A stretch of 64,000 nucleotides of DNA from contig JASEGJ010000002.1 in the NCBI GenBank assembly GCA_030018135.1, positions 31,309-95,308 of the forward strand. Reading direction: 5' to 3'. Below are positions 2,643 through 6,145 of the stretch, piece by piece. Within the stretch, counting starts at the first letter, position 1; each line of letters begins with the position of its first letter. The notes under the pieces are model-generated. The model was given only the letters and a program-made list of their open reading frames with translations. It did not search any database and was not told the origin of the DNA. Origin of the DNA: Candidatus Hodarchaeaceae archaeon (GTDB taxonomy: Archaea > Hadarchaeota > Hadarchaeia > Hadarchaeales > Hadarchaeaceae). Position numbers and translations under genes: made by a program.

Positions 2643-4964
2643 GTGGTGCACGTCAGCAAAATAGAGATGCGGGGTTTCAAGTCCTTTGGAAACACAAAAG
2701 TGAGCCTTCCCCTCTCTTCGTGTTTAACGGCGATCGTTGGGCCGAACGGTTCCGGAAAGAGCAACATAATCGAGGCTTTTTGTTTCGTCCTGGGGTGGAT
2801 GAGCGCCAAGACCATGCGCGCCGAGAGGTTTTCCGATTTGTTGTTCAACGGCGGCAACGGTCAACGGCCGGCGCCATTCGCGGAGGTTTCGCTTCACTTC
2901 GACAACAGCGATGGAGTTTTGCCCGTTGACTCGAAAACCGTTGTGATAGCGCGGCGCGTGGATCGCAGCGGCAAATGCGTGTATAGACTTAATAAAAAGC
3001 GCGCGTCGCGACAGGAGATAGTCGACCTGCTCTCGAAAGTCATGTCGAGCCCGGGCGGTTACAATTTCATAATGCAGGGAGATGTCGACCGATTTATAAA
3101 GATGAATCCCCTCGAGCGCAGATCGATCATCGACGACCTCGCGGGAATCGCGGAATACGACGAGAAGAAAGAAAAGTCGCTTGCGGAGCTTCAACGAGTC
3201 GAGACAAATCTTCAGAGCATGGGTGCCATCCTCAACGAGATCGGCATGCAAATGGAAAAGTTGCGCATAGAGAAGGAGGGGGCCATGCGCTACAGGCAAC
3301 TTAAAAATCAGCTCGAGCAGGGGCGCGCAATGCTGCTGCTCGCTCAACAAAACATCTGCGGGCGGAAGCTGTCCGAAATTCAGCGCAAGATAAGTGCTAA
3401 AAACGGTGAACTCTCAGAGCTCCGCGATGAATCGCAAAAAATTGCAGACGCAATAAATCAACACGAAAGAAAAATCAAGCAACTTGATAAACTCATCCAT
3501 GAAAAGCAAAGCGCGGACATCCTCGCCGCGGCCGAGAATTTGCGCGAGCGCATCCGCACCCTGACCGAGATGATAGCGTCCACAAACGACGAGCAAACCG
3601 CGGTTAAAACAAGAATCGCAAACGTCCAAGCTGAGATCAAAAAAGTTAGCGGGGAGGCTCAAAGGGTGGCCGGCGAGGGACCCGAGCGATTGCTGAGAGA
3701 AATAGAAAAAATCTCAACGAAATTTACGGAGCTCCGCGATGAGTTCGATGGCCTGCTCCAAACATTGGATAGGGCCGACCGCAGGTCTTTTACGGATGTG
3801 CGCAAGGTGCTTGGCCGAGCACAAAAGGTGCTTCACGACATGCGCCCCATAATCAACGATTTCGATGGATGCATCAAGCGGACAACGGAGTTATGGAATA
3901 AGTTTCCACAGGTCCCCACAGGTGATTTACGCAAACCAGAATCTGAACTCCAGGGGCTGCAGGCAGATCTGATATCCCTAGAGGGACAGCACGTTCAGCT
4001 CGATAAAAGGTTCGAGGAACTGCAGCGAAAAGTGCAGGAGGCCAGAGTTGCCCTCGAGACCGCTTCTAAGCGAGGGGATGAGGTACAAAAATCCATCCGG
4101 GCAATGTGTGGGGAAAAGGAGAGCTCGCAGCGCAAGATATCGTCCTTGAGGGGAAGGGCCACGCGCATTCAGGAAGAAATTCAGGCCCTCGAGGGCAAGC
4201 TGCAGGAGTACCGCATTGAGGAAGCTCGCCTGCAGACCCAACTTGATGCGACTGAAAGGGAGTCAAAGCGCATTAAGGTAAGAGTGAAGGAAGTCAAACA
4301 TGTCGATCCATCCAAGTTGGAGCGGGAAATAGAAAAGGTGGAGGCCGAACTTGAGACGATTGGGCCAGTTAACGAGCGAGCGATAAGGGACTTCAGAAAC
4401 ACAGAACGCCGTTACAGCGCCCAGAAGGCACAGTACGACAAGCTGGTGGGCGAAAGGCAGTCCATCCTCGATTTCATGCGGGAAATAGATCAAAAGAAGA
4501 CCGAGGTCTTCATGAAGACGTTCAATGAAATATCCAAGAATTTTGGCAAAATCTTCAGCGAGCTCTCCCCGGGCGGCTCGGCGAGGCTGATCCTAGAGAA
4601 CCCCGAGCACCCGCTCGATGGGGGGCTGGAGATAGAGGCAAAGCCCGCCGGCAAGGAGGTCGTACATGTCGGCGCCATGTCGGGCGGCGAGCGGGCCCTG
4701 ACGGCGCTTGCGTTCATCTTCTCGATCCAGCGGGCGAGGCCGACCGCGCTCTACGTGCTCGACGAGATAGACGCTCACCTAGACGACGAAAACCTGCGAC
4801 GTGTTGCGGAGATGCTGCACCGCTCCTCACGGGAAACACAAATAGTAGTCGTCACGCTGAGGGATTCGATGATGTCCGTTGCTGATCGCCTCTTCGGCGT
4901 AAGCATGGATAGCAGCGGGGTTTCGCGCATGGTGTCGGTCGAGCTGGCTGGCTTGGCTGCATGA
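2643..4964 (+). CDS. smc: SMC condensin ATPase, short form without recognisable hinge
   Basis: A 773-residue SMC protein; archaeal SMCs usually have about 1,150-1,200 residues. The N-terminal head has Walker A GPNGSGKS at 33-40 and the Q-loop FIMQGDVDRF at 142-151. The C-terminal head has the ABC signature MSGGERA at 679-685, Walker B ALYVLDEID at 702-710 and a D-loop just after. Two coiled-coil arms span roughly 165-375 and 435-620. Between them lies only a short linker (about 375-435) instead of the glycine-rich hinge of about 150 residues. The reading frame is continuous. The start is GTG at 2643 or the next codon. It is followed at once by scpA and scpB, which supports a true condensin role in chromosome organisation. 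Confidence 0.93.
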   Translation: MVHVSKIEMRGFKSFGNTKVSLPLSSCLTAIVGPNGSGKSNIIEAFCFVLGWMSAKTMRAERFSDLLFNGGNGQRPAPFAEVSLHFDNSDGVLPVDSKTVVIARRVDRSGKCVYRLNKKRASRQEIVDLLSKVMSSPGGYNFIMQGDVDRFIKMNPLERRSIIDDLAGIAEYDEKKEKSLAELQRVETNLQSMGAILNEIGMQMEKLRIEKEGAMRYRQLKNQLEQGRAMLLLAQQNICGRKLSEIQRKISAKNGELSELRDESQKIADAINQHERKIKQLDKLIHEKQSADILAAAENLRERIRTLTEMIASTNDEQTAVKTRIANVQAEIKKVSGEAQRVAGEGPERLLREIEKISTKFTELRDEFDGLLQTLDRADRRSFTDVRKVLGRAQKVLHDMRPIINDFDGCIKRTTELWNKFPQVPTGDLRKPESELQGLQADLISLEGQHVQLDKRFEELQRKVQEARVALETASKRGDEVQKSIRAMCGEKESSQRKISSLRGRATRIQEEIQALEGKLQEYRIEEARLQTQLDATERESKRIKVRVKEVKHVDPSKLEREIEKVEAELETIGPVNERAIRDFRNTERRYSAQKAQYDKLVGERQSILDFMREIDQKKTEVFMKTFNEISKNFGKIFSELSPGGSARLILENPEHPLDGGLEIEAKPAGKEVVHVGAMSGGERALTALAFIFSIQRARPTALYVLDEIDAHLDDENLRRVAEMLHRSSRETQIVVVTLRDSMMSVADRLFGVSMDSSGVSRMVSVELAGLAA

Positions 4965-4974
4965 GGTGTTCGCT

Positions 4975-5634
4975 ATGACCGTAGTGGTGGACCAACCGTT
5001 TCAAATATTGCTTGAGCTCGTCCAATCGCACAAGCTTGACCCGTGGGATGTGGATATCGAGAGGCTTGCTGACATCTTCGCGCGGCGCATAAGGGAGATG
5101 CGGGAGCTCGACCTCCGCGTGTCGGGGCGGACGCTGCTGTCGGCGTCGGTGCTGTTGCGCATAAAGTCCGACTACGTGCTAAATGGCAACGGGCATGAGC
5201 AATCCAGCGAGGAGGAACTCGACGAGGTTTTTGACCTCAACCTGCCTGAGCTGGGCTCCATCATGATGATACAGCGGACACCTCGAAAGATCACGCTTGT
5301 GGACCTAATGGACGCGCTCCGGGGCGCCCTGAAGGAGGCTCCGACGCATGCGCGGCCGTCCAGAGGGGCGATGGAAAAAGTCGTGCGGATGCTGAACGAA
5401 TACCACATCAACATCGAGAAGTACCTCGAGAGGCTACATAAACGGGTAGCCGAGCTGGCAGCCGATGGCCGCAGGATCACGATGTCCGAGCTCATCACGG
5501 AGCGGACCAGGATAGCCGTGGCGCGAACTTTGCTCCTCCTCTTGTTCTTGGGCGTGCAGGGGAAGGTGGCGATATGGCAGGATGAGCCCCTCGGCGAGAT
5601 ATTCGTCTCCCTACTAAAGCCGCCGGGTGCTTAG
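4975..5634 (+). CDS. scpA: Segregation and condensation protein A (kleisin)
   Basis: A 219-residue kleisin subunit. The N-terminal helix region (FQILLELVQSHKLDPWDVDI) binds the SMC neck in known complexes. The C-terminal winged helix (TMSELITERTRIAVARTLLLLL onwards) binds the opposite SMC head. An acidic linker lies near residues 78-90. The ATG at 4975 is preceded by GAGGTG overlapping the smc stop, so translation is probably coupled. It lies between smc and scpB. Confidence 0.92.
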   Translation: MTVVVDQPFQILLELVQSHKLDPWDVDIERLADIFARRIREMRELDLRVSGRTLLSASVLLRIKSDYVLNGNGHEQSSEEELDEVFDLNLPELGSIMMIQRTPRKITLVDLMDALRGALKEAPTHARPSRGAMEKVVRMLNEYHINIEKYLERLHKRVAELAADGRRITMSELITERTRIAVARTLLLLLFLGVQGKVAIWQDEPLGEIFVSLLKPPGA

Positions 5635-5635
5635 C

Positions 5636-6145
5636 ATGGGCATCGAAGAGGATCGCTCGACCATAGAGGCGGCCCTCTACGCCGCCGACCGCCCTTTGAC
5701 CCTGAGTGAGCTCTGCGGGGTGCTCGGCACCTCCTCCGAGACCTACGTACGCAAGCTCATCGATGCGCTCATGGCAAACTACAAGAAGCGCGGGGGACCC
5801 CTCATGCTATCGGAGACTGCTAAGGACACGTTCGCGCTCACCCTCAGCGAGGGTTACATGCCGAAGCTCGAGGGCATCATGCCCAAGACCAAGCTCTCCC
5901 GTAGCACCCTGAAGACGCTCGCGCTCGTAGCGTACAAGCAGCCGATCCAGCAGGCGAGGCTCGCGGAGTTTCGCGGGGGGAGGGTGTACGAGCACGTAAA
6001 GCAGCTCGCGGCCCTCGGCTTCGTCGAGTCGAGGCCGTTTGGCCGCACCCGGGTGCTCCGGACATCGAAAAGGTTCGCTGGCTACTTCGGCTTCGAGGAC
6101 GATATGGACAAGATCCGCGAGCGGCTTGAGGAGTTAATGCGATAG
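5636..6145 (+). CDS. scpB: Segregation and condensation protein B
   Basis: A 169-residue ScpB with two winged-helix domains. The first is marked by RSTIEAALYAADRPLTLSEL, the second by LSRSTLKTLALVAYKQPIQQ and TSKRFAGYFGF. ScpB dimers bind the ScpA linker and complete the prokaryotic condensin. The ATG lies one base after the scpA stop, so the two genes are certainly in one operon. Confidence 0.92.
   Translation: MGIEEDRSTIEAALYAADRPLTLSELCGVLGTSSETYVRKLIDALMANYKKRGGPLMLSETAKDTFALTLSEGYMPKLEGIMPKTKLSRSTLKTLALVAYKQPIQQARLAEFRGGRVYEHVKQLAALGFVESRPFGRTRVLRTSKRFAGYFGFEDDMDKIRERLEELMR

Follow-up and report, generated by a model that had tools for sequence, protein, structure and literature searches.

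The hinge domain is the part that normally joins the two arms of an SMC protein into a ring. Bacillus subtilis Smc carrying the zinc hook of Rad50 at the hinge site, known as Smc(Zh), is functional (PMC5344682), and the Rad50 hook can in turn be exchanged for the hinge of MukB or SMC (PMC6969161). Hinge-less SMCs were described in 2025 from marine Actinobacteria, recovered from marine sequence catalogues (PMC12153180). Here we analyzed a window of 64,000 nucleotides from an archaeon that its named relatives (Hadesarchaea, Candidatus Hadarchaeum) place in the Hadarchaeota/Hadesarchaea, and which encodes an SMC ATPase without a hinge next to scpA and scpB (Table 1); our searches found no literature on the SMC of Hadarchaeota. 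We read this protein as an ordinary archaeal Smc-ScpA(-ScpB) SMC that lost its hinge once, before the order diversified, and that would now use a hairpin of about 60 residues at the arm tip as its dimerization module, a reading to which we give a probability of roughly 0.57.

Table 1. Features of the smc-scpA-scpB locus (positions are those of the window)
Feature	Position	Strand	Evidence
smc, SMC ATPase without hinge, 773 aa	2643..4964	+	continuous ORF, SMC_N, TIGR02169, Foldseek
N-terminal half-head, residues 1-168, Walker A 33-40	2643..3146	+	motif, AF2, column conservation 0.70-0.87
N-terminal coiled-coil arm, residues 169-335	3147..3647	+	AF2 helices 169-289 / 292-335; length 158-167 (22 sequences)
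Flexible linker 1, residues 336-349	3648..3689	+	pLDDT < 50 at 336-347; length range 1-15
Predicted apex helical hairpin at hinge site, helices 350-376 / 383-420	3690..3902	+	AF2 (two distant members), core length, order-specific profile
Flexible linker 2, residues 421-435	3903..3947	+	pLDDT < 50 at 419-433; residues 413-436 length range 4-24
C-terminal coiled-coil arm, distal part, residues 436-543	3948..4271	+	AF2
C-terminal half-head, residues 606-773, signature 680-683, Walker B 702-710	4458..4961	+	motifs, conservation
scpA, kleisin	4966..5634	+	PF02616 E 9.7e-15; adjoins smc in relatives
scpB, kite-type subunit	5627..6145	+	PF04079 E 2.4e-32; adjoins scpA in relatives

Inspection of the reading frame showed that smc is a single unbroken frame of 773 codons from its GTG start to its stop, and both ATPase half-heads are intact, with Walker A (GPNGSGKS), the signature (SGGE), and Walker B (ALYVLDEID) in place; an earlier note on this DNA, made from the sequence alone, was right on both counts. 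The protein matched SMC_N at E = 2.7e-69 and TIGR02169 at E = 2e-188, the latter with a score of 628.6 bits, under the curated cut-off of 729.4, as is expected if the middle of the SMC is absent. A Foldseek search with the AF2 model (mean pLDDT 79.8) returned as its top match the Pyrococcus Smc head with joint (5xei; E = 3.6e-40, 34% identity), followed by an Smc head bound to ScpA (5xns). Head motifs, arms, a joint-type fold, and the kleisin operon are all kept. In the model, the C-terminal arm extends past its distal part to about residue 605, with loops at 544-555 and 574-579.

At E <= 10, Pfam SMC_hinge (PF06470) matched neither the 773-aa protein nor any reading frame of the genome (1.1 Mb); as a positive control, it matched in 12 of 14 control genomes. 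A hinge profile made from archaeal SMCs gave a probability of 0.7% against the alignment of the hinge-less clade (hhalign) and, as a control, of 100% against its own full-length relatives. No hinge rose above noise in any of the 27 genomes of the order, in which the two weak hits are Hel308-type helicases. These searches uphold the central claim of the earlier note, that the hinge is truly missing and that the SMC must dimerize in another way or depend on its heads and kleisin. The note's description of the apex needs correcting: the odd region is not about 60 residues of unclear structure at 375-435 but residues 336-436, for which a helical hairpin is the predicted fold. A diverged hinge, which the note had allowed might lie in residues 330-480, is ruled out by Pfam, our own HMM, and hhalign, all with positive controls. 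A hinge on a separate gene is ruled out by the lack of PF06470 in the genomes, the helicases aside, and a zinc hook at the apex by the lack of any CxxC in the SMC. It has also to be asked whether the short gene is an assembly or annotation error, such as the omission of about 1.2 kb that the note had considered, or whether its hinge is encoded elsewhere. Nothing was found in favor of either, and both are refuted by these results: the short SMC is common to all 27 genomes, relatives that are complete and just as short come from many independent genomes at 35 to 70% identity, and no hinge domain exists elsewhere in them.

The SMC of all 27 genomes is about 725 to 780 aa long (complete in most, contig-end pieces in the rest), with identities that run from 70% down to about 35%. 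The sole outgroup from the same phylum (G027) has a 1,144-aa SMC in which the hinge is strongly matched (E = 1e-27). In trees of the ATPase head, the hinge-less SMCs form one clade (support, 97-98) that sits inside the hinge-bearing archaeal SMCs (support, 96-100); there was no specific grouping with G027, the placement of which was weakly supported. From this nesting, the simplest reading of the trees is a single loss of the hinge within SMC proper, with no tie to Rad50 or ASRP. The heads are under strong purifying selection (dN/dS, 0.05 to 0.13). The earlier note had presented a single unusual enzyme; the hinge loss is real, but it is lineage-wide and apparently happened once, so that it is not the oddity of one protein. 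Nor was a second full-length SMC found in the genome (93% complete), where the note had advised looking for one, and a paralogue alongside a full SMC is ruled out on that ground; weaker SMC_N matches are also present. The other full-size SMC-superfamily proteins of the genome are a Rad50 with a CPVC hook and an SMC-related ATPase of about 620 to 660 aa (L057:437-2422, contig C2), whose arms are very short and which lacks a CxxC hook. This ATPase scores nearer to SMC than to ASRP, and similar proteins of about 630 to 690 aa occur across the order.

Each of the phylum's 28 genomes has both scpA and scpB. They adjoin smc on the same contig in the genomes of the order that we examined, and the genes around smc are also conserved in the loci examined; in G027, scpA and scpB are neighbors on a different contig from smc. 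The gene order of a complete smc-scpA-scpB operon is present, as the earlier note had claimed, but an operon alone is no proof of a three-part complex. Neither such a complex nor ScpB binding should be assumed, given that none of six archaeal ScpAs tested elsewhere bound its ScpB (PMC7055376).

In the AF2 model of the window SMC, the two arms (169-335 and 436-543) are separated by disordered linkers and, between these, two helices (350-376 and 383-420). The model of a 727-aa SMC from the most distant family (L055) has the same layout, with helices at 332-355 and 361-390, and the two proteins share 43% identity. In an alignment of 22 sequences, the hairpin core is 59 to 62 residues long and the flanking linkers vary from 1 to 15 and from 4 to 24 residues. 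Both helices show a heptad spacing of hydrophobic positions, to which helix 2 adds a further stripe; the conserved-hydrophobic fraction of helix 2 is 0.37, versus a maximum of 0.30 in any 27-residue window of the distal arms, and its hydrophobic surface appears to be more than a simple hairpin would need. A profile of the hairpin matched the SMC of this order only (26 of 27 genomes versus 0 of 74 other archaea) and recovered held-out members at E = 1e-13 and 3e-10; in the 27th genome (G017), smc is split over contigs. In informative pairs, the dN/dS of the hairpin was roughly 0.35 to 0.42, which is similar to the arms and a weaker constraint than on the heads, and just three columns (F361, F368, and L371) are near-invariant. 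Comparison with solved structures gave only weak matches, to designed bundles, HP0062, and generic helical proteins, which reflect general coiled-coil character. Replacement of the hinge at the apex by a two-helix hairpin is well supported by the models and alignments. The predicted hairpin is real and lineage-specific yet not an intensely constrained surface; it is roughly as free to change as the arms are and so gives no sign of a tightly fixed interface.

A wider survey covered 178 archaeal genomes, with SMC called at E <= 1e-20. SMC was found in 154 of them, and 38 of these had no detectable hinge: the 27 of the order and 11 others. Some of these 11 have diverged apices, and others, from the phylum of G067, carry a CPxC hook. 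In that phylum, a Rad50-like C-P-x-C hook replaces the hinge near residue 490 (16 of 16 loci read; L106, L110-L125), and the head of L106 matches TIGR02169 at E = 1e-160, far better than it matches Rad50. Judged by sequence, these proteins are the natural counterpart of the engineered Smc(Zh); we know of no description of natural zinc-hook SMCs and found none in the literature searched. The same phylum includes a 932-aa SMC with neither a detectable hinge nor CxxC (L103, from G087), and the SMCs of G205, G179 (831 aa), and G189 (793 aa) are similar to it by length; all four are possible further hinge-less forms. Length was ruled out as a marker of hinge loss, as SMCs of 758 to 872 aa elsewhere retain the hinge: another archaeal family keeps a diverged hinge in SMCs of 758 to 773 aa; L088 and L089 (family f19), at just 758 to 764 aa, have such a hinge. 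Several long archaeal SMCs (L104, L105, and L108 of family f22, L102, and L107) have no hinge-profile match and a globular apex, which is probably a strongly diverged domain. An intein with a LAGLIDADG endonuclease occupies residues 49-586 of one archaeal SMC (L109, from G046; Pfam E = 1e-25), at the Walker A region, and G196 and L070 probably have a similar one, a call made from length and a split match only.

The most likely role of the hairpin is that of a small helical dimerization module in place of the hinge. That two hairpins dimerize is argued by analogy, the precedents being the engineered Smc with a zinc hook and Rad50 given the hinge of MukB or SMC; these swaps, together with the natural archaeal SMCs that carry CPxC hooks, suggest that the hinge slot is exchangeable. 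The globular hinge would have been lost once, before the order diversified, the arm tip now carries the two-helix hairpin, and two hairpins, one per SMC, would pack as a small antiparallel four-helix bundle that joins the tips and that the flexible linkers allow to move. Head engagement would still be driven by ATP, ScpA would still bridge both heads, and the usual DNA work would fall to a ring or rod of reduced size, its arms about 25 nm long. Against a dimerization module, a two-helix hairpin can merely cap an antiparallel coiled coil, and the arm-like dN/dS and small number of near-invariant columns also count against it.

A rival reading is a protein that does not dimerize at its apex at all, with each single arm ending in a capping hairpin and the SMCs pairing via their ATP-engaged heads and one ScpA only, which predicts an open V-shaped or transient complex in place of a ring. 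The missing hinge, a tip without any strongly conserved feature, relaxed selection on the hairpin, flexible linkers, and a retained kleisin all speak for such a protein. However, a fixed length, a hydrophobic pattern conserved in 22 sequences, and presence in 26 of 27 genomes are more than a disposable cap needs, and Rad50 function is abolished when hook dimerization is lost (PMC6969161). We regard single arms as unlikely, though a serious competitor, and are equally doubtful that the only Smc-kleisin system of a whole archaeal order lacks a dimerizing domain at the tip and that heads and kleisin suffice. It is more improbable still that the tips dimerize via the distal arms or another protein, for example the 620- to 660-aa ATPase, in which case the hairpin would be where a partner or DNA docks. 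A match to an SMC-related protein of about 630 to 690 aa, which in this genome is without a CxxC hook, does occur in most of the order's genomes, and helix 2 does present a broad hydrophobic face, but no genetic linkage was seen between smc and the gene of this second ATPase, their pairing is hypothetical, and the operon holds ScpA and ScpB only.

Evolution appears to have swapped out a part long treated as essential. A lineage with its hinge replaced and its SMC-kleisin operon in place is a natural experiment on whether the hinge fold, any link between the tips, or no link is needed; should no tip dimerizer exist, SMC function in the order would need heads and kleisin alone. The hairpin of this order and the zinc-hook SMCs of the other phylum suggest several swaps at the hinge slot, which makes the question testable with small soluble proteins.

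Among known systems, Pyrococcus yayanosii Smc (5xei, 5xns) resembles the SMC of the order in its head, signature, Walker motifs, neck and joint, and kleisin neighbor, whereas the SMC of the order has no hinge, arms of about half the length, and a hairpin at the tip. Of the marks of a canonical SMC, it has the two half-heads with their motifs, archaeal-SMC descent by head phylogeny, and an adjacent scpA; the central hinge (PF06470) is missing, and the score stays under the TIGR02169 cut-off. The actinobacterial hinge-less SMCs, as presented in the available text (PMC12153180), have SMC heads and a coiled coil with neither hinge nor CxxC hook, and the window SMC agrees with them in being an SMC by descent without hinge or CxxC, but they are bacterial, and that text mentions neither a kleisin operon nor a conserved hairpin at the apex. 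The archaeal and actinobacterial losses were probably independent, because the hinge-less SMCs of the order nest within archaeal SMCs. In Smc(Zh) (PMC5344682), a small dimerizing module replaces the hinge, as the hairpin is proposed to do here, although that protein is engineered and uses zinc, whereas the window SMC is natural and has no CxxC. ASRP, ClsN, and Sph (PMC9389158) are ATPases of the SMC superfamily that are likewise archaeal and lack an SMC hinge, but they carry a zinc hook, and the ASRP model (NF045487) scores the CxxC-less window SMC at 118 bits against a cut-off of 300. Rad50 shares the head, the antiparallel coiled coil, and a small apex module; the window SMC differs in having no zinc hook, and the genome encodes its separate, CPVC-bearing Rad50. 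What is new here is an archaeal order in which a hinge-less SMC is the only full-sized SMC found, with a conserved kleisin operon and a defined, predicted apex hairpin.
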